Shown here: positions 1 through 24,782 of the stretch, one piece after another
Position numbering within the stretch: position 1 is the first letter of the stretch
How the letters are laid out: every line of letters starts with the position of its first letter
IMG/VR virus record: IMGVR_UViG_3300017963_002326
Location: 1 to 24,782 of that record
Reading direction: 5' to 3' (one strand)
Origin: a virus
Length of the DNA: 24,782 nt
Notes under the pieces: model-generated
The model's input: the letters and a program-made list of their open reading frames with translations, nothing else
Told to the model about the DNA's origin: nothing
The model's database searches: none
Position numbers and translations under genes: made by a program

Positions 1-3000
1 TCCCGTCGAGCAGCTCGACGTGCGCTCTCGTGCTGATACTCGCCAGCGGGCCGGCGCTGCCATCCTCGATCGCGTCAGCGATGCGAGCCATCGTGCGCCC
101 CGTCGCGATGTTGTTGCGGGCTTGCTGGCGAGCACCCGCCGCCATCGAAGCCCGCCGCGCCGTGTTTTCGAGGCGGTCGGCGTTGTGCGACTCGCGCCCC
201 GCCGCTTCGAGACTCTTCGCCTGGTCACGAAGCCGCGAGATCGCCTTCGCTTCGCGTCGCTGTCGCGTCGCAGCGGTCGAGACGGGTCTACGCTCGCGTT
301 TCGCCTTCGGAGCCTTCTCGCGCGATTCTGGAGGGGCTGACGGCGACATCCCCTTGAGGTGCTCACGAGCGAATGCTTCGGCAGCCTCCGAGCTGCGGAA
401 CGCATACCCCTTGTCGGCATAGCTGTACCAACCGCCCGCTTCCTTGGCAGCCGCGATGAGTCGCGCGCGGTCTTCTTTCGGTGTGACGCCGGTTGCCGCT
501 ACCCAGATCGGCTTGTTGCGTTTCTTCGTGCGGCTCTCGACGATCGGGATCTTGCCGACCGTTGCCACCGGGGCGGGGGCGGGCTTCGCCGCCGGGGCGG
601 GCTCGGCAGTCTCAACCGGCGCCTTGAATTGCGGACGTTCAACGTCACTCGCCGCCATCTTCACGTCAGGATGTCGTGTCGCGCTGGAATACGAATAGCC
701 TTCAACGAACGTGCCGCGCTTCGCCAGCTCCAACCGGATCGCAGCCGACCGGCGAGACATCGAAACCGCCCGGTCCCAAGCGGTTGGATCTGTTGCAGCT
801 TCGTGCGCTCTGAACGCTTTGACCGCTGCCTCACGAGCTGAGAGATATTGCCGCTTCAACTCGACTGTAGGCGCGTCAAGCCCGCCCTGCGAGTACCGCC
901 CCGATGCGATCTCGACCTCGGCGCCCATCTCTCGAAAGGCGTGCTTCCGATCCTCGCCTTCCGCGACTGTCTTCGCTCCCTTCTTGTGCCCATGAAGTGT
1001 GATCCAACCGCCAAGCATTGCATCTGCTTCTTGCCGTTCCTTCACGACCTGTTCGTATGGGCGAATCACTCCCGGCTTAGCGCCTGCTTGCATCGGGGGC
1101 AGCGGTGCAGACTTCTCGGCTTTCTTTCGCGGCTTGCGCTTCGTCGACGGCTTCGCCTTCGGCTCGGGCGCGGGCTCGGGCTGCCCTGTTGCCTGTCGCA
1201 ACCGCTTCTCAATCTCCGCGATCGCCTTGCGCTGCTTGTTGACCTCGCGTTTCTTCGTGCGCTCGCTGTACCACGAACGCCCTTCAACGTCCGCCAGCTC
1301 TTTGCGCGCTTCCTCCAGCTCTTTGCGGATGTTCTCGGGGTCATTCCGATGCGCCTCGATCTCCGCCTTGATCTCCGCGGTACGTGCTGCGCGACGCGCC
1401 TTCTTTGCGTCGATCTCCACTTGGTTGAAAGGCGAAGCCGCTTTCTTCGGCGCGAGCCCCCAATCGTTCGCGAGCACCCGGCCCATATGCTCGATCGCGG
1501 AAGCCACAGTCGGGAAGCGCTTGGCGAGGTGTTTGGGATCTTTCTGCGCGGTTTCGTAGAGCAACCGGCCCGCGTGCTCGACCTCCTGACGCTGTGCAAC
1601 CGACAGCTTGTGCTCCGTTTCCAGCTTCGCGAGAGCGAGCTTGGCTGCCTTGTCGAGCGGCTCCTCACTCACCGCCGGCGGGTCTTCAACCCGTGTGATC
1701 ATGTCCTCAGTCGGCGCCACCGGCGGCACAATCGCGCCCGTCGATCCGGGTAGGATCCCGTCCGCCTTGAACGCTTCGATCGCCGCTACGAGCTTCGCCT
1801 GCAACTCGACGCGCTCATCGCCGTGTGGGTAAGGCTGTGCCTCGATCGCTTCGTGCTCTTTGCGTGCCTCGCGCGATGCCCTGACCACGTCCCGCCGGGC
1901 TTCGTAGTAGTCATCGATCGCTTTCTTCACGTACGGGGATCGGTACGTGAGCTTCGTGAGCACCGCGTCAGATACGCCCCAATAGGTCCAGGCGTCCTTT
2001 TTCGCCTTCGGGGCGACCCGAGGCAACTCAGCGGCGATCGTCGCGTGTACGTCGTGCTCTAGCTCTGACACCCGCGCGTGTGCTGCGACGACCCGCGCAT
2101 CCGAGCTGACATCCGGGTCAAGCTGTACCATCGTCGGATACTGCTCGCGCGTGCCGACCGCAAGGTACGTGTTCGCACGTTCCTGAGCGTGCAACGAGTC
2201 TTCAACCGTCGACTCGAAGAGCCGCGCGAACAGCTCGGCGGGGTCGCTGTAGTAGACCGACTCTTTGCCGCCGTCGAGCGCGACCGCGTGCACGTAGTAA
2301 TCCGACTCTCGGATCGCTTTCTTGAGCTGCTTGACCGCTTCTGCGCTGCGCTCCGGTAGCTGCGGCTTGTCGTCCGTCGCGAAGGTCGCCTTGCCCTTGC
2401 CTGCCTTGCCCGCCTGCGCGTCAAGGAAGTGCCCCCATTCGTGCGCCAACGATCCGACGCCCCGGTGCTTTGTGATGTTGACGATGTCGAGATCGGATTC
2501 GTAGTGCGCCGACGCTCGGGCTTGCTGCGGTGTCTTGCCACCGCGAGCACCAAGCCCGATCGCGAGCTGCCCCTTGACCGACATCGAACGATCACCAACC
2601 CGCAGCACGTCAGCCATGTCGGCAAGCGCGCCTGCTACGCCCGTCAAATGCTGGTGACGGTCGCGCTGCCGCATGTAATCGCCGTATTGAATGTTCGTGA
2701 TCCCACCGAAGCGCTTGGCGATTGCTTCGCCCTCGATCTTGCCCGGATCACGACCGCCCTTGCGGTAGAACCCGCCAGCCGCCCGGATGTCGGATTCCTT
2801 GAATTTGCGCGGCTTGGCGATCGACTCCGCGTACGCAACCGCCAGTTTCTCAGGCTTCGATCCGAACGCCTCCGCGAGAGCCTCGACCTTCTGTGCCGTC
2901 CGAAGTGCTTTCTTCTGACCGTCCGACGCCTGCCACGTGCCGAACGCCTTGAGGCGCTCGAAACGCGAGCCGAACGCCTTGCGTTTCTTCTCTTTCTCGG

Positions 3001-5629
3001 GGCTGACGTACTTCTTCACGGTGCGCCCAGACCAGTATTGCACCGCGCTATCGAGCACGTACCCCGCGGGGGGTGTCTCGCCCGGCACGACCTCGACCGC
3101 GCCCCAATCCGACAGCTCTTCGATCGCCGTCTTGACGTCTTCGATCGTCTTCGCCGAATCGAGCGTGCGCTGAGCGAGCGTCATCGCTTCAAGGTACGTC
3201 TCGTTATCAACGCCCTTCGGGGTCTTCGCCGCGAGCATGGTGCGGGTCCATTCCTTGAGGTGATACCCGCCGATTGTCCCGCCGGTCGTGAGGTGCTCCA
3301 ACAGGTTGAACTGCCCGAAGATGGTGTCGCGTTTGACCGGCTTGCCGCCTGCCTCTTCGAGCACTTCATCTTTGCGGCTCTTGATCATCGCGAGATCGGC
3401 GCGCGACCCGAAGACGTGCTCGCCGACCTCTTCGTGCTTGGGGATCACTTCCGCCGCTTTCTTAGCCTCGCGCTTGAGCTGCGTCTCGATCTTGAGCCCG
3501 AGCCGCTTCGCTTCGTCGCGGATCCGCTGGCGTTGCTTCGGGGTGCCCGTCTTCATCGCTTGTCGTAGATCCCGAATGAGCTTCTGACGGTGCGCCTCAT
3601 AGGCTTCGGCGTGCTCTGTCCGCAACAGCTCTGAGAGCTTCTGCTTGCTGATCTCGCGCGTCTTGCCACTCTCGTCATGCCGGACCATCACACGATCACC
3701 ACGAACGGCGGTGACGTGGTAATGCCCGTCGCCGTGCTGGAACGCGGCACCAACCTCGAAATGCTCCTCATGCGCGACGCCGCGCCCGTGCTGGATCTTG
3801 TAGAAGTACCGATACCGCCGGCGCCCGTGCTTGTCCGTGAACGGAACCCGCTTGACGTACTTGTGTCCCTTGGCCTTGAAGAGCCAATCCCCGACGTTGT
3901 CGGGCAGTCTGATTTCGCCGCCGAGCTGCTGCCGCACGAACCGGATGATCGCCTTCTCGACCGCCTTCTTTTCTGCTGGCGTAGCGGGCTTCTCCGCGGT
4001 CTTCGCCGCCTTCTCCGCCTTCGCTTCCTTGCCCTTGTCGCTCTTCGCGCTCTTCGCCTTCGGCTTGCTGGTCAAGACCCGTTCCATCCCAGCGCGCACG
4101 AGCTGTGTCGCGGTGAGCTTCCCGGCTTCCGCCTTCGCGTGTAGCTTCTGCCACGCCGGATGCTCCGGTGTCTCCGGGTAGTGCGCGAGCCAACGCTTGC
4201 TGACCTCGGCGGGCTTCGGCTTGCCTAGCTTCTCGACCTTCTCTTTGACCTGTGCTGACCGCTCGGCAGCCGCAGCTTTCGACGCTGCCTTCGCCTTCGT
4301 CTTCGCTTCCGCCTTCGCCTTCTCTTTCGCCTTGTGCTCGGCGACCGCCTTCTTTGCGGCTTGCTCGATCATGGTCGCGACCGCGGGATGTTTCGCTAGC
4401 TCCTCCGGGGACGTAGGCATCGGCTCGCCGGCGGTCGCGGGCTTCCCGGGCTCGGGTTTCTTCTCGGGTGCGTGCCCGTGTGCTTCTTTGAGGTGCTTGA
4501 CCGCTTCGTCGAGCTTGGCTTGCGCGATCGGGTGCGGTGTCTTCGCGCCCTCTAGCTTTTTGATCACCGCAGCGATCTCGCTCTTCGTGCCCAGCTTGCC
4601 GGCCTTGACCTCGCCGAGTTGCTCCTCTGTGAGTCGCTCTTGCTTCGCTGCAACGGCGGGCTTGTCCGCTGGCGCCTCGACCTTCATCTCGCCGGTCTTG
4701 CTCTCGCCGGTCTTGCCCGACTCGACACCCGCGGCCTGAGCCGCGCGCATCTTCGCGCGCATCGTGGCGCGTACCTCTTCCTTGCGCGCTTCCTTGCCCG
4801 CCGCCTGCCCGCGAGTGTGTACGTTGTGCAAAAACGCGCTCTCAGCCTGCGACGCATGGTGCTCGTACTGGTCGAGCAGCCGCTTGTGCTCCTCGGGCGA
4901 TACGCGCTTCTTTCCGCGCCCGATTCGGTCGAGCTTCTTTCGCAGCGCTCGTGCCTGCCCGAAGTGATGTTTGCCCGCTCGAAAGCTGTGCTTCGCGCTG
5001 GGGTAGAAGTACACGTAATGGTCGCCCTCGCGCTTCCGATACCCCCCATGCTTGCCGTGCATGATGGGTTCCCAACCCCCGCCAGCCGGCATCGCTGCCT
5101 TGTGCATGTCGGCGACAACCGCCGCAAACTTGGTGCGTTGCTTGTTACCGCCGCGCCCGTCGAGCCATCGCTTGAACGCGGGAACACTGGTGACGGTGTG
5201 CCCGCCGTAGAAGCCCGGCTTGTCGTAGTGCCGCCGGTACTCCGTGAGCGCCTGCCGCACGCCGTCAAAACCCAACATCACCTTGTCTTCATCGTACCGC
5301 TTCGAGCCCGGAACCTTCTGCCGGACCACAACCACGGTCGGGCTGTCGTGATTTGGGCCCACGTAGCAGTCAACCGGGTCGCCGTCAGCGCCCGTCGTGC
5401 CTCGGATCTCCCCGTAGTGGTGCATCATCTTCGTGCGCCAACCATCGCCCTTGCGCACCGAGCCGCGCCGGTTTTCGAGGTGCACCGGGATCCCCTGGAA
5501 ATCGACGACCCCCTGATAGGGATGCTCGGGTGCTTCGCGCGAACGAGCACGCGCAGCGACCGCGTCAACAGCCTGGAGCTTCACAGGGAACGCCGTTCCC
5601 TTGGCGACGATTTGCACGAATGAAGGCAT
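1..5629 (-). CDS. Giant polyvalent protein (InPase and LPD1-type domains), 3' end outside window
   Basis: I translated the minus strand from the ATG at 5629 and found no stop codon down to base 1: at least 1876 residues, C-terminus missing. An AGGGGG Shine-Dalgarno lies 6 bases before the start. Residues ~40-160 form a pyrophosphatase-like domain; DGDPVDC (82-88, Asp82, Asp84, Asp87) fits the soluble inorganic pyrophosphatase signature, and DEDKVMLGF (113-121) also fits the polyvalent-protein InPase family. A Lys/Ala-rich linker covers ~430-525. Residues ~970-1145 look like LPD1: GLGARGGK, AHYES, then SLAHEWGHFLD with the metallopeptidase-type motif HEWGH at 1063-1067, and YYSDPAELFARLFE further on. 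A GGWYSYADKGYAFRSSEAA segment near 1727 is also typical of polyvalent proteins. Known of the family: large phage or plasmid proteins proposed to enter the host with DNA and counter its defences. Position beside the head genes fits packaging in the virion. The target is unknown. Confidence 0.85.
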   Translation of the reverse strand, partial: MPSFVQIVAKGTAFPVKLQAVDAVAARARSREAPEHPYQGVVDFQGIPVHLENRRGSVRKGDGWRTKMMHHYGEIRGTTGADGDPVDCYVGPNHDSPTVVVVRQKVPGSKRYDEDKVMLGFDGVRQALTEYRRHYDKPGFYGGHTVTSVPAFKRWLDGRGGNKQRTKFAAVVADMHKAAMPAGGGWEPIMHGKHGGYRKREGDHYVYFYPSAKHSFRAGKHHFGQARALRKKLDRIGRGKKRVSPEEHKRLLDQYEHHASQAESAFLHNVHTRGQAAGKEARKEEVRATMRAKMRAAQAAGVESGKTGESKTGEMKVEAPADKPAVAAKQERLTEEQLGEVKAGKLGTKSEIAAVIKKLEGAKTPHPIAQAKLDEAVKHLKEAHGHAPEKKPEPGKPATAGEPMPTSPEELAKHPAVATMIEQAAKKAVAEHKAKEKAKAEAKTKAKAASKAAAAERSAQVKEKVEKLGKPKPAEVSKRWLAHYPETPEHPAWQKLHAKAEAGKLTATQLVRAGMERVLTSKPKAKSAKSDKGKEAKAEKAAKTAEKPATPAEKKAVEKAIIRFVRQQLGGEIRLPDNVGDWLFKAKGHKYVKRVPFTDKHGRRRYRYFYKIQHGRGVAHEEHFEVGAAFQHGDGHYHVTAVRGDRVMVRHDESGKTREISKQKLSELLRTEHAEAYEAHRQKLIRDLRQAMKTGTPKQRQRIRDEAKRLGLKIETQLKREAKKAAEVIPKHEEVGEHVFGSRADLAMIKSRKDEVLEEAGGKPVKRDTIFGQFNLLEHLTTGGTIGGYHLKEWTRTMLAAKTPKGVDNETYLEAMTLAQRTLDSAKTIEDVKTAIEELSDWGAVEVVPGETPPAGYVLDSAVQYWSGRTVKKYVSPEKEKKRKAFGSRFERLKAFGTWQASDGQKKALRTAQKVEALAEAFGSKPEKLAVAYAESIAKPRKFKESDIRAAGGFYRKGGRDPGKIEGEAIAKRFGGITNIQYGDYMRQRDRHQHLTGVAGALADMADVLRVGDRSMSVKGQLAIGLGARGGKTPQQARASAHYESDLDIVNITKHRGVGSLAHEWGHFLDAQAGKAGKGKATFATDDKPQLPERSAEAVKQLKKAIRESDYYVHAVALDGGKESVYYSDPAELFARLFESTVEDSLHAQERANTYLAVGTREQYPTMVQLDPDVSSDARVVAAHARVSELEHDVHATIAAELPRVAPKAKKDAWTYWGVSDAVLTKLTYRSPYVKKAIDDYYEARRDVVRASREARKEHEAIEAQPYPHGDERVELQAKLVAAIEAFKADGILPGSTGAIVPPVAPTEDMITRVEDPPAVSEEPLDKAAKLALAKLETEHKLSVAQRQEVEHAGRLLYETAQKDPKHLAKRFPTVASAIEHMGRVLANDWGLAPKKAASPFNQVEIDAKKARRAARTAEIKAEIEAHRNDPENIRKELEEARKELADVEGRSWYSERTKKREVNKQRKAIAEIEKRLRQATGQPEPAPEPKAKPSTKRKPRKKAEKSAPLPPMQAGAKPGVIRPYEQVVKERQEADAMLGGWITLHGHKKGAKTVAEGEDRKHAFREMGAEVEIASGRYSQGGLDAPTVELKRQYLSAREAAVKAFRAHEAATDPTAWDRAVSMSRRSAAIRLELAKRGTFVEGYSYSSATRHPDVKMAASDVERPQFKAPVETAEPAPAAKPAPAPVATVGKIPIVESRTKKRNKPIWVAATGVTPKEDRARLIAAAKEAGGWYSYADKGYAFRSSEAAEAFAREHLKGMSPSAPPESREKAPKAKRERRPVSTAATRQRREAKAISRLRDQAKSLEAAGRESHNADRLENTARRASMAAGARQQARNNIATGRTMARIADAIEDGSAGPLASISTRAHVELLDG

Positions 5630-5642
5630 GGGGATCCCCCTG

Positions 5643-6329
5643 CTAGAACCCCTGCCGCTGCTGCAACAGGTACAGATGCCCGTCGTGAGTGCTCGCGAGC
5701 TGCGGCAACAGGTCTTCCAAGCCCGCAGTGTACTTCCCGCGCGCCTTGAGCTGCTCGATCATGCGGTCGAGGTACGCCATGAAAGCGCGCTCTTGCGCCA
5801 GCGCCCGCTCGACCAGATCCGCGCTGGCGGTCATGTTCGCGCGCTCGTGACGCGCCACAGCGAGCGGATCGACGGTCGCGACCCCGTGATACCCGACCGC
5901 ACGCTCGGCGACCTGATCGATCTCGCCCTTCACGTCATCGTACAACCGCGAGAACAGCTCGTGATCGCCGTAGAACGAAGGACCCCGCGTCTGCCAGTGT
6001 GCTGTCCAGTGCGACCAGAAGAGCGCCTTGAGACGCCCGAGCAGCTCGACCATCATGGCGGCGCACGTCTGATCAGACGCCATCCCTGGCATCCCAGCGA
6101 TCGCCTTCTCGAAGGGCCCACGCTGGCGCCCTCGCGAAAGCGCCTTCTCGAAGGGCCCGCGCTTCTGCTTGCGCGTGCCCTTCTCAACTTCGTAGTCCTC
6201 TTCGCCTTCGATCGCGTCGCCTTCATCCTCGCCAGATCCGAGCGGCGTTGCGTCTTCGTCTTCGTCTTCGTCGGCTTTCTTGAGCTTCGCCTTGACCTCA
6301 GACCATTCTTTCTTGCTACCGCACGGCAT
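5643..6329 (-). CDS. Dps-like ferritin-fold protein with acidic N-terminal extension
   Basis: 228 residues. Residues ~88-225 resemble Dps (DNA protection during starvation) proteins. The stretch TAHWQTRGPSFYGDHELF, followed by IDQVAERAV, lines up without gaps with E. coli Dps from memory, and the four ferroxidase ligands are present: His111, His123, Asp138 and Glu142. Family role: oxidises and stores iron, sometimes binds DNA, and forms a dodecamer. The N-terminus (1-85) is not Dps-like: it is very acidic (DEDEDED near 20-26, EGEED near 41-45) and contains RGPFEKA twice (57-63 and 70-76). The gene lies between the Mu F-like head protein (10-base gap) and the giant polyvalent protein (13-base gap), so a virion or capsid-interior role is possible; this is inference. 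The acidic tail argues against simple DNA coating. Confidence 0.75.
   Translation of the reverse strand: MPCGSKKEWSEVKAKLKKADEDEDEDATPLGSGEDEGDAIEGEEDYEVEKGTRKQKRGPFEKALSRGRQRGPFEKAIAGMPGMASDQTCAAMMVELLGRLKALFWSHWTAHWQTRGPSFYGDHELFSRLYDDVKGEIDQVAERAVGYHGVATVDPLAVARHERANMTASADLVERALAQERAFMAYLDRMIEQLKARGKYTAGLEDLLPQLASTHDGHLYLLQQRQGF
6102..6158 (-). repeat. 18-base perfect direct repeat inside the Dps-like gene
   Basis: The 18-base word CGCCTTCTCGAAGGGCCC (plus strand) occurs at 6102-6119 and 6141-6158. The offset is 39 bases, or 13 codons, so frame is kept and GPFEKA is encoded twice. It looks like a recent in-frame tandem duplication in the linker ahead of the ferritin domain. Confidence 0.9.
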
Positions 6330-12042: not shown

Positions 12043-12692
12043 ACCGTGATCTCCTGGTCGTCAAACGTGATCTCTTCGAACGGCAGCCGACGCAGCTCGG
12101 TTTGCAGCTCGAAATCCGCCACCGCCCACCGAGACGGGCCCGGGTGCTCGCGATCCATGCACGCTAACGACCGCGCCAGCCCTTCGTCGATGGGCGGTGG
12201 CGCGAGCCCGTCGACATCCGGCAGCTTGCGAGCGAGCTTCACGAGCCGCTTGCGAAACCGCCGAGTGTACTTGCCCGGGGCGAGCGTCGCATACCCTTTG
12301 CCGACCACGTACGCGATCCAGCGCAGAGGCTCGTCAGAGAGCACCGCAGCGCCCGCGTAACGACTCCGAGAGACAAACGCGACCCAACCCCTCACCCCTT
12401 GCTCGACGCTATCCCAGCCGCAGAAATCCGCCTCTACGCGCCGACGCTTCCCATCGTGCCCGTACTCCGTTGTGAGCTTGCGCACGGTATGCGTGTGCCC
12501 GGTGATGCTGGTCTTGTCCCGCCGGAAGCGCGGCTTGACACCCCAGAAGTTGAACGATTGCGCGAGTACGTTGGTGCCCTTGCCGGATTCGAGCCGCGCT
12601 TGCGCCCAACAGACCTGCCACGGCACGCCCAGCTCGGTACAGATGGCACGCGCCGGCTTGCCGACGACCTCGACCCATTCGGCGAGCTTCAC
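12039..12692 (-). CDS. Peptidoglycan beta-N-acetylglucosaminidase (GH73 / FlgJ-like)
   Basis: 217 residues. The N-terminal half reads AICTELGVPWQVCWAQARLE followed by SGKG, then SFNFWGVKP, which is the GH73 glucosaminidase pattern; Glu35 is the likely catalytic acid. FCGWDSVEQGVRGWVAFVSRS and the RWIAYVVGKGYAT stretch match the later conserved part (shape plus 'Y.TD'-like region). Predicted role: cuts the glycan strand of peptidoglycan, either in lysis or as a virion lysin during entry. The C-terminal ~45 residues are not recognised. It is overlapped at both ends by ATGA junctions with the patatin and the amidase, so three envelope-attacking enzymes are co-translated. No signal peptide. Confidence 0.75.
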   Translation of the reverse strand: MKLAEWVEVVGKPARAICTELGVPWQVCWAQARLESGKGTNVLAQSFNFWGVKPRFRRDKTSITGHTHTVRKLTTEYGHDGKRRRVEADFCGWDSVEQGVRGWVAFVSRSRYAGAAVLSDEPLRWIAYVVGKGYATLAPGKYTRRFRKRLVKLARKLPDVDGLAPPPIDEGLARSLACMDREHPGPSRWAVADFELQTELRRLPFEEITFDDQEITV

Positions 12693-13522
12693 GCTGCCCC
12701 CGTCTCGCCGAGCTGCCAGCGCCAGGCGTTCGTCTGCGGTGAGAAATCGAGCCCATCGCCAAGATCGCGATCGGGACGGTAGATCACGACCGCGGCATCA
12801 TCCCGCACGCCCGCATAGTTGCACCGAAGGTCATCCGCAAGGATCTGGTAGCTCATCGTGTCGACAGCCGCGAGCCCCGCCTCAAGAGCGTTTGACGCTG
12901 GCGCTGCGACCGGCGGATCGAACGGGAAGCACACGACCGCGTCGACCTCGGTACATCCCGCCCGGATGAGCGGCTCGACGGGCGCGACCGTCTGCACCCC
13001 GCCATCGAAGTACAGCGGGCCCGGAGCTGTCTCGGTCGGGCTGACGAGCTGCGGCACCTCTTGCGGCTCGAAAGCGTACGGGATCGCGCAGCTCGCGAGC
13101 ACCGCGTCAATCAAGACCACGTGGTCTAGCTCCGTCCATTCGACCCACTGCCGCGACGAGTAAGTCACCGCCCCTACAATGAGCTTGCGCCCGCTGTCGC
13201 GCACCCGCCACGGCTCAAGGTGTTTGCGCAGAAACGAGCGCAGCGGTCGCAGGTCACGGACCCCCTTGCGCCACAGGCTGTGAATCATCCCGAACGGGCA
13301 CCATCGCTTGTGCACGTCGGATGTCTTGAGCGTGTGCCACAGCTTCCGCAAATCCTCGAAGGCTTGCGCCTCCTCACCGACCGGGTACTGCGCGAGGTGC
13401 GCTGCGTTGACCGCGCCGACGCTGACCCCCGCGACGACATCCCACGGACGCGCCAGCGAAGCGGCCTTGCCCGCCTGCCAAGCGCCCCGTGCGGCACCAC
13501 CACTGAGAGCCAGCCCGAGCAT
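12689..13522 (-). CDS. Patatin-like phospholipase
   Basis: 277 residues. All three patatin signatures are present: the oxyanion-hole loop LSGGAARGAW (residues 6-15), the nucleophile elbow GVSVG with Ser34, and the catalytic Asp in FDGG (Asp173). Length and spacing fit a single minimal patatin domain. These are Ser-Asp dyad lipid acyl hydrolases (phospholipase A activity). In bacteria they act as toxins or in lipid turnover, and some are defence effectors. A phage gene in an ATGA overlap with a glucosaminidase suggests membrane damage in lysis or entry; this is inference from context. No signal peptide or membrane helix is visible. The ATG at 13522 starts 3 bases after the preceding stop. Confidence 0.85.
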   Translation of the reverse strand: MLGLALSGGAARGAWQAGKAASLARPWDVVAGVSVGAVNAAHLAQYPVGEEAQAFEDLRKLWHTLKTSDVHKRWCPFGMIHSLWRKGVRDLRPLRSFLRKHLEPWRVRDSGRKLIVGAVTYSSRQWVEWTELDHVVLIDAVLASCAIPYAFEPQEVPQLVSPTETAPGPLYFDGGVQTVAPVEPLIRAGCTEVDAVVCFPFDPPVAAPASNALEAGLAAVDTMSYQILADDLRCNYAGVRDDAAVVIYRPDRDLGDGLDFSPQTNAWRWQLGETGAA

Positions 13523-18886: not shown

Positions 18887-20644
18887 TCAATCAAGAGCAT
18901 AGAGCCCGTCGGGATCCGCGTCGAGATCGTCATCGCCGCCGATGCCCAGCACCTCTAGCTCTCCCCAGAATTGTCGAGCCTGAGCTGCGCGTCGCTGCGC
19001 CATGTCGACCTTCGGCTTGTTGATACCCGCGTTCAGGTCTTCATCCTCGGGCCGGCTTTGAACCCCGACCGCGACCTCTTCGTCATCCGTCATCGCCGAG
19101 CCGACCTCGTGCTCGAAGACGGCGCGCGCTTCCTCGCGAGCGAGCCAAGCTGCCATCAGCCGGTCGCCTGTATGCGCCGCGGGGTCATAGCTCAGCATCT
19201 CGCCGATCCAAGCCTCGACCTCGGGCTCGCATCGGAGCAAGCCCTGTGAGTCTTCCTCACACGGGATGAGCCACAACCCGAGCGACAGCTCGACCGCGAC
19301 GCCCTCGACCCCGTGCTCGGCGTGGTGCTTGTTGCGCCCCGTCGTCGCACCCCGCACCCGCATCCCGGGCATGTCGATTGCGAGATCCTGCACCACGTAC
19401 ACTTGCGCTGCGTTGTCCTCTACCCGGAAGCGGACCCCCGGGAAGCGCTCGTGAACCGACGCCAGCCGCGCCTTGATTTCCGGGCTCGTCCAGCGCCCGA
19501 CCTCGATCCAAAGCGGGCGCACCAAGGGCTTGCGAACCGCCAGCTCGCTCGGGTCAATCCCGAACGCGACCGCTGGCCCGACCATGGCGACGAAGATGCA
19601 CGTGAGATCATGCTGCGTCCCTTTGCGCGTTGCCAGGTCGACACCAGCGACGAGTGTGCAGCCCTCGGGCACCCGGTCGACAGCGTGCACGAGCGTGAGC
19701 CCTTGGCCCAGCCGCTTGCACTTGTTGATCCAAGCGCTCTGAAAGCGCCGCTGCGCGTCGCTGCGCGCTTTGCACCAGATGACCCGTGGAGCGACCGCCG
19801 GCGGGTACTGGTCGACCCGCTTCTGAGGCCAGACCTCGGGCCAGCGCGTCTTACCCCACGGGTGCGCCGAAGAGCGCGTCGCAGGGAGCGCGATTGGTGT
19901 CTCGACCAGATGCCAGCCATGGTCGCGCGCGAGCTTGTGCCCCGCGTCGTACTCTTCCCAGGCATTCATTAGCAGCGCGATCTTGCCGTCGACACCGTGC
20001 CCGGATGCGCGCTGATGGCTCATGCGCGACTCGACCTGTAGCAGAATCCACATCAGCACAAGGTCGCTGCGGTACTCAGTGCGCGTGTTTTCGATATCCA
20101 TGATGTCATCGAAACACGCCCACGTGCACCGCGAGCCGAGCACCGCCGCATCGGGCCCGGCTGGCTGGACGCTGGGATCCTTGACCGGATCCCAATCGCC
20201 GCCGCGCTTGACGGTGAAGCCTTCCCGCGCCGACCACGGGCGACCACGGGCCAGGTCTGGGAACACCTCGCGCACCCGCGGGTTGCCCTCGATATGGCGC
20301 ATGATGGTCGCGAGAAACTTCTGGCTCGCGATCTTCTGCGTCTTGCTCCCGAGGATGATTCGCGCGGTGTCGGGATCCTGCCCGAGCGTGAAGATGCTAC
20401 GCCCGATGGTGATCTGCTGCGTCTTGCCTGTCTCCGGGCTCGTGAGGATGACGACGCGATCATGCTGCTCGATCGCCGTGTGCCAGTCGATCTGAAAGCT
20501 CTGCTGCTTGATCGGCTTGTTCGTCTGCTCGTCGACGAGCGCGTACTCGCAGAACGCGATCGGGTCTTCCCGGGCGAGCACCCGCAAGGGCGACTGAGCG
20601 ACGTGTGCCCCCTGCCGGATGCGGCGCATCAGGTCGCCACGCAT
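18887..20644 (-). CDS. Phage terminase large subunit
   Basis: 585 residues from the ATG at 20644, which overlaps the previous stop by one base (TGATG) and has AAGG 7 bases upstream. Frames opening further upstream (to 21031) read into other genes. Walker A-like TSPETGKT lies at 68-75, and Walker B with catalytic acid at 176-181 (ACFDDI, Asp179-Asp180). The C-terminal RNase H-like nuclease shows AGVDLATRKGTQHD (Asp336, Asp346), VEDNA (Glu409-Asp410) and TGDRLMA (Asp494). Role: ATP-driven DNA packaging motor that cuts concatemers at the portal. The C-terminal ~70 residues are acidic and disordered-looking (DDDLDADPDG). It is separated from the portal by about 9.5 kb of fibre and lysis genes. 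Confidence 0.9.
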   Translation of the reverse strand: MRGDLMRRIRQGAHVAQSPLRVLAREDPIAFCEYALVDEQTNKPIKQQSFQIDWHTAIEQHDRVVILTSPETGKTQQITIGRSIFTLGQDPDTARIILGSKTQKIASQKFLATIMRHIEGNPRVREVFPDLARGRPWSAREGFTVKRGGDWDPVKDPSVQPAGPDAAVLGSRCTWACFDDIMDIENTRTEYRSDLVLMWILLQVESRMSHQRASGHGVDGKIALLMNAWEEYDAGHKLARDHGWHLVETPIALPATRSSAHPWGKTRWPEVWPQKRVDQYPPAVAPRVIWCKARSDAQRRFQSAWINKCKRLGQGLTLVHAVDRVPEGCTLVAGVDLATRKGTQHDLTCIFVAMVGPAVAFGIDPSELAVRKPLVRPLWIEVGRWTSPEIKARLASVHERFPGVRFRVEDNAAQVYVVQDLAIDMPGMRVRGATTGRNKHHAEHGVEGVAVELSLGLWLIPCEEDSQGLLRCEPEVEAWIGEMLSYDPAAHTGDRLMAAWLAREEARAVFEHEVGSAMTDDEEVAVGVQSRPEDEDLNAGINKPKVDMAQRRAAQARQFWGELEVLGIGGDDDLDADPDGLYALD

Positions 20645-20889
20645 CACTCGACCTTGGCCGGCGGCTTGGGTTGGATTTCCCGCATCGGGTCGCCTTCTAT
20701 GAACACGCGCCGATGCTCGGCCGGCTGCGCCCGCAGGAAGGGCCCTGCGAGCACTTCGGCAGCTTCGAGCAGCTCGACCACACGCCCCCTCGGGATCATG
20801 CGACCCGCGTACGCTTCGAGCAGCTCTCTCGTGCGCCGTACAACCTGCAACGCCTCGATCGTGGTCGTCTTCGTGGTCGGTTTCGTCAT
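20644..20889 (-). CDS. Hypothetical 81-residue helical protein between GroES-like gene and large terminase
   Basis: The ATG at 20889 gives an ATGA overlap with the GroES-like stop; the upstream in-frame start at 20925 would run inside that gene. The N-terminus is Thr/Lys-rich (MTKPTTKTTT), followed by two probable helices (IEALQVVRRTRELLEAYAG and GRVVELLEAAEVLAGPFL), and it ends PKPPAKVE. I do not recognise it. It may be a small DNA-packaging accessory because both neighbours in the operon are terminase-related; this is inference. Confidence 0.65.
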   Translation of the reverse strand: MTKPTTKTTTIEALQVVRRTRELLEAYAGRMIPRGRVVELLEAAEVLAGPFLRAQPAEHRRVFIEGDPMREIQPKPPAKVE

Positions 20890-21320
20890 CGGACGAGCCC
20901 CGGGCGCAAGACCCACCCGATGCACTCCGAGCCGTGCGTCGCCCTGGTCTTGCCGAAGACCTCGCCGGTGCCCTCGAAGCCCTCACACGTCCCGAACGGC
21001 TCGCCAGCTCGCCAGCCGCGACAGGTCGCACAGCATCGCTCGACGACTAGCGCGACCCCGGGCTCGCGAATGAGCTGTGTCGCGTAATCGCCGTCGACAG
21101 CCTCACCGAGCCGCCATTTCGTCACGACCACGTCGCCGACCTTGACGCTCATCGGGGCCCGCTCCGCCGACCCCGGAAGGAATCGCCCCGGGCCCACTGC
21201 GAGCACCTTGCCGACCTGCCAGGGCCCGCAGTCGGCTCGCGGATGCACGAGCCCGCCGGGCAGCTCTTCGGCCGGCGGGATGACCGCCACTAGCAACCTG
21301 TCATTGATTGGGTTCAGCAT
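20886..21320 (-). CDS. GroES-like co-chaperonin with C-terminal cysteine-rich extension
   Basis: 144 residues from the ATG at 21320, with GGGAG 7 bases upstream; it overlaps the preceding gene by 20 bases. Residues 1-94 follow the GroES/Cpn10 pattern: NPINDRLLVAVIPP, a mobile-loop-like EELPGGLVHP (19-27), GKVLAVGPGR (37-46), and VKVGDVVVTKW (59-69). Residues 95-144 are not part of GroES: CCATC (96-100), Cys112 and Cys133 may bind a metal. Family role: caps GroEL during folding; phage T4 gp31 replaces GroES for the capsid protein. Here it may fold the phage capsid or terminase. No phage GroEL is in the window, so it would need the host's. Its place beside the terminase genes is unusual. Confidence 0.75.
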   Translation of the reverse strand: MLNPINDRLLVAVIPPAEELPGGLVHPRADCGPWQVGKVLAVGPGRFLPGSAERAPMSVKVGDVVVTKWRLGEAVDGDYATQLIREPGVALVVERCCATCRGWRAGEPFGTCEGFEGTGEVFGKTRATHGSECIGWVLRPGLVR

Positions 21321-22068
21321 GTTTCGACTCCCGTTGTAGCTGAGCATAGGCACGCTCGGCGGCTGCCGATGCCGTGCGGGTGATATGGATCGCTTCCTCG
21401 ACCGTCAGCTCGGGCACCTTGTCGCCCGCGCTGTCCCCTTCGCCAAGGCAAAGCTGCGACAGCTCGTGCGCTCGCTCGTACCCGTTGACCGCCCGTTCTT
21501 GCAGGCTCACGAGCCGTTCAAGTAGTCCGACAATCGTGTCGGGCTTCGTGTCGGGGTCCGCCGCGAGTGCCTCGATACGGACGGCTAGCGCCTCGCTGAG
21601 CTGCGCCGCCGCTTTGGTGGCTTCGCCGATCTTCTCAAGCAGCATCGCGCCAGACCGCGTCGCGTGCCTCGCCGCAATGGCGTCGAGCACCCGCACCGTC
21701 GCCACGTCGCGCCGGATCGCTTCGATGTCTACCGAGCCCGTCGAATGCGCCTTCAAGACCTGCGACAGCGTCTCTGCGTCGTGCGACTGCTGCAACACAG
21801 TCTGCCGGCCTTGGGCACCGTCAATGACCTCGACCGCGGTGCGCACCTCGGGATCGAGCGTCTCCCGCTCGGGCACCGCCACGATGAAGGTCTTGATCGG
21901 CGGCGCCCAATCGAAGCGACCCCAGCCTTCATCCCACGCCTTCCGCACGAACCCGCGCGAGACGCCGAGAGCCTGCGACGCAGCTCGGAAGTTGCCGGGC
22001 TTCTGCCGGAAGACCTTGACCAGCTCCGCATACGTCTCGCGCGTCTGCCTCGCCCTACCGCCCGCCAT
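21301..22068 (-). CDS. Helix-turn-helix protein, probable terminase small subunit
   Basis: 255 residues from the ATG at 22068, which shares a base with the preceding TGA stop (TGATG) and has AGGGG 8 bases upstream; an upstream in-frame start (22122) would run inside the previous gene. Residues ~13-46 read YAELVKVFRQKPGNFRAASQ followed by ALGVSRGFVRKAWDEG, a helix-turn-helix of the type in small terminase subunits. The rest is a long Ala/Glu-rich helical region. Family role: recognises the packaging site on phage DNA and recruits the large subunit. Support: helix-turn-helix, oligomerising helices, and large terminase two genes downstream. A transcription regulator is the main alternative. Confidence 0.6.
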   Translation of the reverse strand: MAGGRARQTRETYAELVKVFRQKPGNFRAASQALGVSRGFVRKAWDEGWGRFDWAPPIKTFIVAVPERETLDPEVRTAVEVIDGAQGRQTVLQQSHDAETLSQVLKAHSTGSVDIEAIRRDVATVRVLDAIAARHATRSGAMLLEKIGEATKAAAQLSEALAVRIEALAADPDTKPDTIVGLLERLVSLQERAVNGYERAHELSQLCLGEGDSAGDKVPELTVEEAIHITRTASAAAERAYAQLQRESKHAEPNQ

Positions 22069-22820
22069 CAGAGCGACCCCTGGCAGGTCGCCAGCCGCAC
22101 CCGGCGCGCTTCGCTGATCCAACCCGGCCCCGCCTGCATGTCCAGCGCCTTGTCATCCTGGTCGCGCGTGGTCGCCGCGAAATCGACGACTAGCAGCTTC
22201 CCACCACCGACCGCGGCTGCATACGTCCACCGGGCTGGCGTCGGGAGCGTGATGCGCCCGAGGTGCTGCGGGCTCGGGATTGCGTCGAGCAAGATGCTGT
22301 AGAAGCGCGTCGCAGGCTTCGGTAGGAACGAGACGTGAAACACGACAGTCGGCGCTTCATCGCCAGGGCAGAGCACGAGAGCCCAGCCCGCGCCCCACGC
22401 CCGGATCTGCGTCCCGATGGGCGGCTTCTGTCCGCCGAAGACATGCGGCAGCACCTCGAAAACATCAGCAAGCCACCGCGGGTTCGCGTCCCGGTCGTCA
22501 AACGCTTCGAGAAGCTGATCAGCGTCTCGCGAGCCCAGAAACGAGCGCAGCGCGATCCGTGACACCGTGAGCCACGCGGGCGGAGCATCCGACAGCTCGA
22601 TCGCCCGCCGCCCCTTGTCCGTGAGCACCGCAAGCAGGCTCGAAGGGCGCCCCGGTGCTTCGATGCGCACGAGCCCGCCCCGCTCTAGCGCCTTGAGAGC
22701 GCTAGGCGGCGCCTCGGGCTGTGGCAATCGCGAGCCCTCAAGACTCGCCCCGTCGAGGTAGCGGAGCACCGCCAGCCTCGCCTTCGTGATCCTGACTCCG
22801 CCGATCTTCAACTCCGACAT
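22068..22820 (-). CDS. Putative winged-helix DNA-binding protein, 250 residues
   Basis: I choose the ATG at 22820 (MSELKIGGVRITKARLAVL) because GGAGG lies 9 bases upstream at 22830-22834. The frame also opens at 22865, but that would translate the repeat array. Residues ~9-78 read as a compact helical domain with a wing-like turn (ITKARLAVLRYLDG, SALKALERGGLVRI, LLAVLTDKGRRAIEL), similar to MarR/PadR-type winged helices. The rest (~80-250) is not recognised; it has several Trp and Gly/Val-rich strands. It sits directly downstream of the TGTCATAA array, whose last copy is within 30 bases of its start codon. A regulator or origin-binding protein that uses those sites is the obvious hypothesis, but it is unproven. 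Confidence 0.5.
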   Translation of the reverse strand: MSELKIGGVRITKARLAVLRYLDGASLEGSRLPQPEAPPSALKALERGGLVRIEAPGRPSSLLAVLTDKGRRAIELSDAPPAWLTVSRIALRSFLGSRDADQLLEAFDDRDANPRWLADVFEVLPHVFGGQKPPIGTQIRAWGAGWALVLCPGDEAPTVVFHVSFLPKPATRFYSILLDAIPSPQHLGRITLPTPARWTYAAAVGGGKLLVVDFAATTRDQDDKALDMQAGPGWISEARRVRLATCQGSL

Positions 22821-22856
22821 GGCCCGCAACCTCCGAGGGGTGTCATAACTCCGCCG

Positions 22857-22877
22857 TTGTGACACCCCCTGTCATAA
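22857..22877. repeat. Dyad 1: TTGTGACA-N5-TGTCATAA
   Basis: Two opposed half-sites separated by CCCCC (22865-22869). The left half has G instead of A at its third base, the right half is perfect. Total 21 bases, a size suited to a dimeric DNA-binding protein. Confidence 0.75.
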
Positions 22878-22929
22878 CTCACGGAAGCCCCCGAATCAAC
22901 GTCGGAATCGGCCCGGTCAGACGGGCGAG

Positions 22930-22951
22930 TTATGACAGGGGGGTGTCATAA
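22930..22951. repeat. Dyad 2: perfect TTATGACA-N6-TGTCATAA
   Basis: Two perfect 8-base inverted arms around GGGGGG (22938-22943). This is the best-formed dyad in the array. Confidence 0.85.
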
Positions 22952-22970
22952 AACGGGCTCTCAGGCGCCG

Positions 22971-22991
22971 TTATGACAGGGGGTGTCACGA
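22971..22991. repeat. Dyad 3: TTATGACA-N5-TGTCACGA
   Basis: A perfect left arm and a right arm with two mismatches (CG for TA) around GGGGG (22979-22983). It is followed by further direct half-sites at 22993-23000 (TTATGACC) and 23004-23011 (TTATGACA, then CCCC). Confidence 0.75.
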
Positions 22992-23039
22992 GTTATGACC
23001 CACTTATGACACCCCAGCCCCCGCCCGGGGCCCGCCACG

Positions 23040-23070
23040 CTCACCACGATCGGTGAGGGGTGTGAGGGGT
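23040..23070. repeat. Inverted repeat CTCACC/GGTGAG and tandem GTGAGGGGT pair
   Basis: CTCACC (23040-23045) and GGTGAG (23052-23057) are perfect inverted arms around ACGATC. The right arm runs into a perfect 9-base tandem, GTGAGGGGT at 23053-23061 and 23062-23070. No T tract follows on either strand, so I do not call a terminator. The tandem shares GGGGTGT with the main array motif and may be a degenerate copy. Confidence 0.7.
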
Positions 23071-23080
23071 TGAAAAAGAT

Positions 23081-23093
23081 TCTCAGTATGAGA
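23081..23093. repeat. Short inverted repeat TCTCA-GTA-TGAGA
   Basis: Two 5-base arms with a 3-base centre in the A-rich patch of the non-coding region. Size fits a small operator but it is too short to be sure. Confidence 0.4.
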
Positions 23094-23197
23094 CGAAAAC
23101 GCGCTAGCCCGCAGCACACCTCGCCGAGCCTACCGTTTCGTTTTTGAGCACACCAGCCCCGAGAGCACCCGAAAATCGGCCCGAAATCGCCCTCGGA

Positions 23198-23231
23198 GGG
23201 GTGTCATAGGGGTGTCATAGGGGTGTCATAA
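23198..23231. repeat. Three tandem 11-base units GGGGTGTCATA
   Basis: Perfect copies start at 23198, 23209 and 23220, a period of 11 bases, close to one turn of B-DNA, so bound proteins would sit on the same face. The third is extended by AACTCA and meets the stop codon of the methyltransferase gene (23233-23235). This is the clearest iteron-like element in the window. Confidence 0.9.
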
Positions 23232-23232
23232 C

Positions 23233-24036
23233 TCAGCCGCCCACGATGATCAGCTCGGGCACCGGCTGTCGCCCGTTGCCGTCGCAGGACACCGACCGAG
23301 GCGCCGATACTTCGTGAAGCTGCCACGCCGCCGGCGGATACAGCTCGCGCACTAGCTCGCAATCCGGTAGCGACACGACCACACGATGCCGCGCCGACAC
23401 CGACCGCGCGAGCTGCGCGAGCTTCCTGTGTGCTGCCTCGCCGAAGCCCGCCGCTGTGTACGACGTGAAGCCGCCCGGATACGGCGGGTCGAGGTACACG
23501 ACGTCACCCGGTCGCAGCCCCTCGAAGACCCACGCGAACGAGCCGTGCGTCAGCGTCGCCCCCTGCAACACCGACGACGCAGCCCGGAGCGCGACCGCAT
23601 CGGCGAGCGGCTTCGGTGTCCGCCCATAGGGCACGTTCATTCCGCCGGTCGAGTTGACCCGCCACACCCCGTTGAAGGCGCAGCGATTGAGGTAGTACGC
23701 CCGTGCCCCGCGGTCGTGGTCGTCGAGCCTGAGCAGCTCGTTGTGTTCCATGTTCCGAAGCGCGTAGTACAGAGCCTTGTCCGCCTCGACCTCGCCCAGC
23801 TCCGCAATCAGCCCCTCGACGTTGTCGCGGACCGTGCGATACAGCGCCATCAGATCGCCGTTCGCGTCATTGAGCCACACGGGCACGGCGCGCTTCTCCC
23901 GTCCGCAAAGCGTGAAGAAAACCGCCGCCCCGCCCGCGAACGGCTCGACGAGCCGCTCTAGCTTCCGTGGGATATGCTCTAGCACCCGCGGCGCGAGCTT
24001 CCGCTTCCCACCCGGCCAGCGCACGAACGGCATCAT
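23233..24036 (-). CDS. dam: D12-class (Dam-type) adenine-specific DNA methyltransferase
   Basis: 267 residues from the ATG at 24036, with AAGGGGG 5 bases upstream; longer in-frame ORFs upstream (to 24327) are shadow. Motifs in order: FVRWPGGKRKL at 4-14 (AdoMet-binding motif X), EPFAGGAAVFF near 40 (motif I), NRCAFNGVWRVNSTGGMNVP and YGR in the middle, and DVVYLDPPYPG with the catalytic DPPY (motif IV). Length fits Dam (~260-280). It transfers a methyl group from AdoMet to adenine N6, typically in GATC. In phages it protects DNA from restriction or marks it for packaging or replication. GATC and CGATCG occur often in this window, but the site is not proven. No cognate endonuclease is seen. 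Confidence 0.9.
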   Translation of the reverse strand: MMPFVRWPGGKRKLAPRVLEHIPRKLERLVEPFAGGAAVFFTLCGREKRAVPVWLNDANGDLMALYRTVRDNVEGLIAELGEVEADKALYYALRNMEHNELLRLDDHDRGARAYYLNRCAFNGVWRVNSTGGMNVPYGRTPKPLADAVALRAASSVLQGATLTHGSFAWVFEGLRPGDVVYLDPPYPGGFTSYTAAGFGEAAHRKLAQLARSVSARHRVVVSLPDCELVRELYPPAAWQLHEVSAPRSVSCDGNGRQPVPELIIVGG

Positions 24037-24161
24037 GCCCGCCCCCTTCTCAGCGTCGCCACCGTGCCGCCGTTTTTGCCCTCTGAGCGCGTCGAGACGC
24101 TTCGCACGACCGAAGACCCGTCCGAAAGCTCCGACGCCGTACAACGCGAAAACGGCGGCAT
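24033..24161 (-). CDS. Possible 42-residue small protein
   Basis: It starts with an ATG at 24161, 5 bases after the stop of the preceding 130-residue gene, and its TGA stop overlaps the methyltransferase ATG (ATGATG). It would fill the only gap between the two with no waste, as elsewhere in this genome. The sequence is basic and Ser/Arg-rich (MPPFSRCTASELSDGSS) and matches nothing I know. No strong Shine-Dalgarno: the nearest purines are AGGATTGACCAGG. It could be leader or chance. Confidence 0.35.
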   Translation of the reverse strand: MPPFSRCTASELSDGSSVVRSVSTRSEGKNGGTVATLRRGRA

Positions 24162-24166
24162 CCTGG

Positions 24167-24559
24167 TCAATCCTCGCAGCACGTACAATCGCACCGCTCG
24201 ACCTTCGGCGCCAGACAGCCCGACTCTGCCCACACGAGCACGTCGACGAGCGCGTCGCCGAGCCGCACCACGTCGGCATTGAAGACGACCCGCCGCAGCG
24301 ACCGAACCTGTACGTTCCAACGCCCATCGGGCAGCAAGCGAAGCGTCAGCTTGCGATACCCGAGAAGCTCCGCGAGGTGTTGATACGACCATGCAGGCGG
24401 CAACTCACACGGCTCGCTCGGCGCCGCAGGATCCGGCGCGGGCACCTCGATCGGCGGCTCCCCTTCCCGCGAGAACATCCGCGGATGTCTCGGCGGCCAT
24501 TGCATCTTGCCTTCGTACGGGTTCTCACCCCGCAATCCGTCGTGTGGTTTCCCGCTCAC
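24167..24559 (-). CDS. Hypothetical protein with C-terminal cysteine cluster, 130 residues
   Basis: The GTG at 24559 overlaps the VRR-NUC stop (GTGA). The N-terminal ~55 residues are Pro/Glu-rich and flexible. Residues ~57-115 are predicted mixed alpha/beta (YQHLAELLGYRKLTLRLL, LRRVVFNADVVRLGDALV). The last ten residues carry four cysteines, ERCDCTCCED, plus one Cys near 112. No family recognised. The position between a nuclease and a methyltransferase suggests DNA metabolism, but this is only by context. Confidence 0.6.
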   Translation of the reverse strand: MSGKPHDGLRGENPYEGKMQWPPRHPRMFSREGEPPIEVPAPDPAAPSEPCELPPAWSYQHLAELLGYRKLTLRLLPDGRWNVQVRSLRRVVFNADVVRLGDALVDVLVWAESGCLAPKVERCDCTCCED

Positions 24560-24782
24560 AGCTCATACCCCCATGCCCTGAGTTGCTCGACCGCCGCCGC
24601 GCACCCGTTGCACACCGCGGTCAACCATCCGCGCTTTGCCAGCTTCGCCAGCTCGCGCTGTTGTTCCTGTGACGCACCACGCCCGCCATCCGCGCGTTTC
24701 AGCTCGATCGCGACCCCGGGCGGTTGTCGCCCGCCTTCCGACACCGCCTTGCGCAGCGCATCCGGCGGCGGATCGAAGATCA
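24556..24782 (-). CDS. VRR-NUC-type nuclease, C-terminal part only
   Basis: The frame is open to the window edge, so the 5' end lies outside. Visible residues include IFDPPPDALRKAVSEGG, then GVAIELKRADGGRGASQEQQ, and GWLTAVCNGCAAAVEQLRA. These match the C-terminal half of phage VRR-NUC domains: a Glu-x-Lys core (IELKR) and the 'aVC.g...a...l' end. Family role: PD-(D/E)xK nuclease, associated with phage replication, repair or recombination. The upstream catalytic Glu/Asp is not visible. It is the first gene of the visible operon, overlapping the next by 4 bases. Confidence 0.75.
   Translation of the reverse strand, partial: IFDPPPDALRKAVSEGGRQPPGVAIELKRADGGRGASQEQQRELAKLAKRGWLTAVCNGCAAAVEQLRAWGYEL

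Follow-up and report, generated by a model that had tools for sequence, protein, structure and literature searches.

A clustered twelve-site array in a phage intergenic gap as a candidate iteron-type replication origin

Results

A non-coding gap between apparent early and late genes

The window, by which we mean the whole 24.8-kb stretch of viral DNA that was analysed, is a fragment whose main genes lie on the minus strand. In the order of transcription these encode a VRR-NUC-like nuclease, a 130-aa orphan and a Dam-family methylase and, beyond a non-coding gap, a 250-aa protein, the small terminase (TerS), a GroES-like protein, the large terminase (TerL) and then the tail, lysis and head proteins (Table 1). 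Judged by these genes, the gap looks like the boundary between an early block (VRR-NUC-like nuclease, Dam methylase) and a late block (the 250-aa protein, which resembles winged helix-turn-helix (wHTH) proteins, TerS and TerL). The profile matches of the 250-aa protein fall below significance (HTH_20, E 0.22; DUF6293_C winged helix, 0.29; MarR/CouR, 1.2), the AlphaFold model, with a mean pLDDT of 45, cannot be relied on, and our searches found no relatives of it. No replication initiator was recognised on the contig, which ends 1.5 kb upstream of the array described below.

Several other genes of the window deserve mention. The gene for the GroES-like co-chaperone (20886-21353) lies between those for TerS and TerL and has a homologue in L005, the contig with the closest TerL; a patatin-like phospholipase gene (12689-13522) adjoins the lysis genes; the head-gene region encodes a Ferritin/Dps-like protein with a long N-terminal extension (5643-6329); and a 1876-aa polyvalent protein with an inorganic pyrophosphatase domain and LPD1 (2-5629) runs off the contig.

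Table 1. Coordinates of the genes, the gap and the sites within it (window positions; array sites are given by their start on the + strand)
Feature	Position	Strand	Remarks
VRR-NUC-like nuclease, C-terminal part	24556..24780	-	weak Pfam match, E 0.17; relative in L005, E 6e-7; at contig edge
Dam-family N6-adenine methyltransferase	23233..24327	-	because the domain spans residues 98-362 of the ORF, true start is probably near 24039
Non-coding gap, candidate origin	22821..23232	.	from Dam methylase stop codon to start of wHTH-like gene
Three tandem 11-bp units GGGGTGTCATA, sites 10-12	23198..23231	+	beside methylase stop codon
AT-richest 30 bp of contig, 70% AT	23070..23099	.	between both clusters; candidate unwinding element
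Same-orientation pair 11 bp apart, GGTCATAA and TGTCATAA, sites 8 and 9	22993..23011	-
Imperfect dyad TTATGACA-GGGGG-TGTCACGA, sites 6 and 7	22971..22991	.	G5 spacer; inverted 20-bp copy of first dyad
Perfect dyad TTATGACA-GGGGGG-TGTCATAA, sites 4 and 5	22930..22951	.	G6 spacer
Imperfect dyad TTGTGACA-CCCCC-TGTCATAA, sites 2 and 3	22857..22877	.	C5 spacer
Site 1, GGGGTGTCATAACTC	22837..22851	+	16 bp from ATG of wHTH-like gene, beside its GGAGG ribosome-binding sequence
Array sites 1-5	22841, 22857, 22870, 22930, 22944	+, -, +, -, +	site at 22857 is TGTCACAA
Array sites 6-9	22971, 22984, 22993, 23004	-, +, -, -	site at 22984 is TGTCACGA, 2 mismatches; site at 22993 is GGTCATAA
Array sites 10-12	23202, 23213, 23224	+, +, +	sites at 23202 and 23213 are TGTCATAG
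250-aa orphan, possible N-terminal winged-helix-like domain	22068..22820	-	weak profile matches; possible ligand of the sites
TerS, probable small terminase	21301..22122	-	homologous to L005 gene upstream of TerL
TerL, large terminase	18887..21031	-	phrog_38, E 2e-30

The gap contains twelve sites in two clusters around an AT-rich core

Between 22837 and 23231 the gap carries twelve TGTCATAA-type sites, distributed over both strands, of which seven are exact, four have one mismatch and one has two. With up to one mismatch allowed, the window as a whole has 12 matches, of which 11 fall in the gap, against an expectation of 3.9 ± 1.8 for the whole window, and none of 100 shuffles reached 12; the top 8-mer in the gap is present in 8 copies, the maximum in 2000 Markov-simulated gaps being 3. 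A weight matrix made from the twelve sites finds a single comparable match elsewhere, at 19178 inside terL, and all others outside the gap score clearly lower. The twelve-copy array reported in the preliminary description of this DNA is thus real, and chance is excluded. A short word clustered at one locus, here 12 sites in 395 bp, is what an iteron-type origin calls for.

Nine of the sites form a left cluster (22841-23011) that consists of three head-to-head dyads and single sites, and the three tandem units form a right cluster (23198-23231). The preliminary description had listed three dyads with pure G or C spacers and three 11-base tandem units at the far end. The tandem units are indeed present, as 3 x GGGGTGTCATA at 23198-23230, and so are the three pairs and their spacers (5, 6 and 5 bases), but only the dyad at 22930-22951 is perfect and the other two each have one imperfect half. 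To these features we add a second 11-bp-spaced pair (22993/23004), the finding that the first and third dyads are perfect 20-bp copies of each other in mutually inverted orientation (22859-22878 and 22970-22989), and an AT-rich stretch of 30 bp between the two clusters.

An AT-rich element beside or between the iterons is a further mark of iteron origins, and here it is evident at 30 bp and modest at 50 bp, where the maximum in the gap is 54% AT and 79 windows elsewhere are richer. The GC content of the gap is 0.61, as compared with about 0.65 for the contig. Folding of a single strand of the gap gives large stem-loops (z of -4.1 for RNA and -5.0 for DNA), as expected from the inverted sites. 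We found neither a GC-skew switch at the gap nor a DnaA box within it.

The array is absent from the closest TerL relatives

Direct searches with the gap sequence were uninformative: blastn against phages and plasmids gave no meaningful match, an exact 15-mer scan of viral contigs gave only two matches (the one in L003 lying in coding sequence) with an array at neither locus, and a dyad scan returned 24 contigs with single dyads and no array like that of the window. A literature search on TGTCATA words yielded only papers with no visible connection, presumably through primer sequences.

The closest TerL relative, L005 (G001), is about 51% identical over the best segment, and its 77.9-kb contig contains neither the motif nor any short-word array. 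No TGTCATA cluster was found in some 70 further TerL relatives, and the window's motif does not occur at the same place in the TerL relatives of 35% identity; such repeats as we inspected in the latter were rejected as coding or otherwise unrelated. Absence of the motif from the same locus in close relatives had been named beforehand as an observation that would count against a functional array, and this absence is what we see in L005 and in the other TerL relatives. It is not decisive, because the array word changes between nearly identical phages of a more distant group (see below).

L005 carries a homologue of the VRR-NUC gene and a replisome-organizer-like gene (the latter read from the sequence by eye) at the opposite end of its contig, in the same direction. 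If L005 is circularly permuted, these two genes lie just upstream of its methyltransferase, ParB-like, HTH and TerS genes. The order of the genes across both contig ends suggests that L005 is a circularly permuted or complete genome.

In a few distant phages the array word follows the helix-turn-helix of the helicase

The relatives were subjected to three repeat screens, with 8-mers, with TGTCA pentamers and with 7-mers, of which the pentamer screen was seeded with the window's own core, and a distant array-bearing group came out of all three together. The TerL proteins of this group are 21-25% identical to that of the window, the portal is also similar, and the arrays lie between a replication gene and terS. 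The words are TGTCAGTG in L096, GCTACT in L097 and L098, TGTTAC in L099 and TGTCAC in L100 and L101. In L100 the array comes after a Prim-Pol gene and the gene for an AAA_25 ATPase, the C-terminal region of which we read as a wHTH.

L096 and L097 are 97% identical in the ATPase and 99% in TerS, whereas their wHTH regions are only 59% identical and their words are wholly different (TGTCA versus GTAGC). Conversely, L097 has the GTAGC word in common with L112, and L096 the TGTCA word in common with L100, the wHTH regions being 61% identical in either pair. L114 has a TGTCA array after a helicase gene and no terS directly next to it. On these alignments, in a small sample of four distinct helicases whose arrays were already known when the comparison was designed, the word of the array is tracking the C-terminal helix-turn-helix of the replication helicase and not TerS. 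The comparison points to a pairing between the short-word arrays of phage gaps and the helix-turn-helix of the replication protein encoded beside them; if this holds more widely, origins and initiator words could be read straight from metagenomic sequence.

Arrays adjoin replication genes in unrelated phages

A tandem scan, for two copies of GGTGTCATA within 30 bp, gave 94 viral contigs. Four independent cases among the non-coding or gene-end TGTCATA/GGTGTCA arrays adjoin unrelated replication genes, in a tally that was made by inspection and not as a calculated enrichment, from a scan seeded with the TGTCATA word itself. In L153 (3490-3760) the array directly follows the genes for a Prim-Pol and a VapE helicase; in L144 (13380-13690) it follows a Toprim-VapE primase-helicase gene, and both gene and array are near-identical in L182; in L145 (4150-4460) and L165 the repeats lie inside a wHTH gene that is followed by DnaB; and in L142 (2600-2840) they occupy the end of a wHTH gene of the MarR type whose product weakly matches O-like initiation proteins. 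Other non-coding arrays adjoin an integrase gene (L122), a DNA invertase gene (L117), a portal gene (L203) or genes for which no function was recognised.

The VapE helicase of L153 had 625 matches in INPHARED, and six phages were taken from among the 15 listed. A primase- or replication-type gene directly precedes the helicase gene in five of these six, and a gap of 150-300 bp follows it in all; the boundaries of these gaps are annotated gene ends, while those of the metagenomic loci were set by hand. The count of the top 7-mer exceeds that of all 300 simulated gaps in four of the phages (TMW 1.1397 P1, PLE2, bIL312 and phiJB), and in the same four the AT-richest 40 bp lie between the first and the last copy of the word. 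For H1-Guo and phiOE33PA, the 7-mer count of the gap that follows the helicase gene did not differ significantly from the 300 simulated gaps. What the phages with Prim-Pol and VapE (TMW 1.1397 P1, PLE2, phiJB, H1-Guo and phiOE33PA) and bIL312, with VapE, have in common with the window is a phage-specific word that flanks an AT-rich core, clearly so in the four with significant counts. They differ from it in that their gap follows the helicase gene, with VRR-NUC next in H1-Guo and phiOE33PA, whereas in the window VRR-NUC and the methylase precede the array.

Discussion

The preliminary description had proposed that the mixture of repeats and dyads fits cooperative protein binding, a proposal that the geometry of the sites suits, and had offered an operator, a replication iteron, a packaging site or a partition site without choosing among them. 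The iteron option gains from our comparisons, because unrelated contigs have TGTCATA arrays within replication genes or on their 3' side and because two-sided arrays follow the VapE helicase gene in most of the named phages; the packaging option loses, since the same TerS occurs with different arrays and L005 has no array. The best reading of the gap is that it is an iteron-type replication origin, to which we would give an even chance. A phage-encoded initiator with a helix-turn-helix domain would bind cooperatively to the TGTCATAA sites that flank the AT-rich element, open the DNA at this element and load a helicase onto it. We infer such binding, unwinding and replication at the window's array from the comparisons above. 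The initiator may be encoded upstream of the contig edge, much as in L005 the replisome-organizer-like gene seems to precede the same region, or may be the adjacent 250-aa wHTH-like protein. The array offers a testable origin in an uncultivated group of phages.

The position of the gap after the early block speaks for an origin, as do the VRR-NUC homologue and replisome-organizer-like gene that precede the same region of L005 if that genome is circularly permuted. Against it, the array is met by the 3' end of a methylase gene rather than of a helicase gene, L005 lacks any array, the AT content of the core is only modest, and neither a skew switch nor a DnaA box was found. Several of the non-coding TGTCATA arrays in the word-seeded scan, moreover, lie away from recognised replication genes.

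Known origins resemble the gap in different respects. The helicases SaPI Rep and SCCmec Cch2 use their C-terminal domain to bind iterons that lie immediately 3' of the helicase gene (PMC7581432). As in the window, multiple short repeats, both direct and inverted, are collected there in one non-coding gap in an early-gene neighbourhood; in those elements, however, the initiator helicase adjoins the iterons, whereas the neighbours of the window's array are the Dam methylase and the orphan wHTH-like gene. The lambda O origin likewise combines iterons with an AT-rich tract, but its iterons lie inside the O gene (PMC7466680) and no O homologue was recognised on the window; L142 and L145 carry TGTCATA in an O-like setting. 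Phage Sfi21 has a non-coding origin (PMC6356513). The pRN1 origin, downstream of a prim-pol/helicase/wHTH gene, has a stem-loop and no iterons (PMC4234260). It is comparable to the gap of the window, which also folds into large stem-loops, as a non-coding origin next to replication genes, and differs in the lack of iterons. The two-sided layout around an AT-rich patch is the one by which many phages and phage satellites mark the start of replication.

Second to the origin comes an operator cluster, with the packaging and partition readings less likely again. The 250-aa wHTH-like protein, the product of the first gene of the late block, would bind the dyads in front of its gene and control the promoter of the terminase and head operon. 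This is the main rival because the dyads lie immediately upstream of the start of that gene, the array beginning 16 bp from its ATG; a wHTH regulator that acts as a dimer would go well with inverted dyads, and the site is at the early/late boundary. We nevertheless consider an operator rather unlikely, if by no means negligible. For an operator, twelve sites spread over 395 bp, with the tandem trio at a distance of 360 bp, is a large number; the evidence for a wHTH in the 250-aa protein does not reach significance; and no sigma-70-like promoter was found in the gap, weak evidence in that the phage is GC-rich and the promoter type of its host may differ.

Alternatively, the array could be a packaging site (pac or cosB-like) that is bound by the small terminase, perhaps with modulation by the Dam methylase that the phage itself encodes, much as pac of phage P1 is modulated by Dam methylation. 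The array is indeed close to the terminase genes, only one gene from terS, and adjoins a dam-family gene. Sites for packaging would be expected to co-vary with TerS, however, and in the distant relatives L096 and L097 they do not, the array words being completely different next to TerS proteins that are 99% identical. Together with the array of L114, which has no terS directly after it, the lack of an array in the nearest TerL relative, and the absence of GATC from the motif (the gap holds a single GATC), this makes a packaging site improbable.

Origin and operator might also coincide, a combination that we regard as a long shot: the orphan 250-aa wHTH-like protein would be a new kind of initiator, with its iterons adjacent and its gene overlapping terS, and the array would be both the origin and the operator of the late operon. 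If true, this would link replication to the packaging switch.

It is very unlikely that the gap is a partition site, resembling a centromere, to which an extrachromosomal prophage would direct a wHTH or ribbon-helix-helix adaptor. The sites of the gap, tandem and inverted with 11-bp spacing, look like those of iteron centromeres, and a wHTH-like gene (a weak match) is adjacent; no partition ATPase/GTPase or ParB-type gene was recognised on the contig, though, which is a fragment, and the flanking genes are those for the methylase and the terminase.

Stoperators, the dispersed sites for a repressor that are found in mycobacteriophage L5, are barely credible here, even though the sites of the window, with TGTCA after a G-rich run, resemble the L5 stoperator. 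L5-type stoperators are repeated short phage sites too, but they are scattered over the genome in an orientation that follows transcription (PMC9283540), whereas all good sites of the 24.8-kb window except one coding match form a single cluster in one gap, in both orientations.

Other repeats seen in the scans

The tandem-scan matches in L127/L162, L140 and L138 were rejected as coding tandem repeats. L006 (14580-15140) and L063 (5150-5385) contain long tandem repeats of short units that appear to be coding. In L122 (7150-7720), TATGACA and GTATGACCG repeats occupy the gap beside the integrase gene, with a tRNA-like stretch, noted by eye, nearby. Some 5.4 kb before TerL, L092 has a long stretch (4500-5000) in which several different words are repeated and palindromes occur (TTTCGTRCACGAAA).
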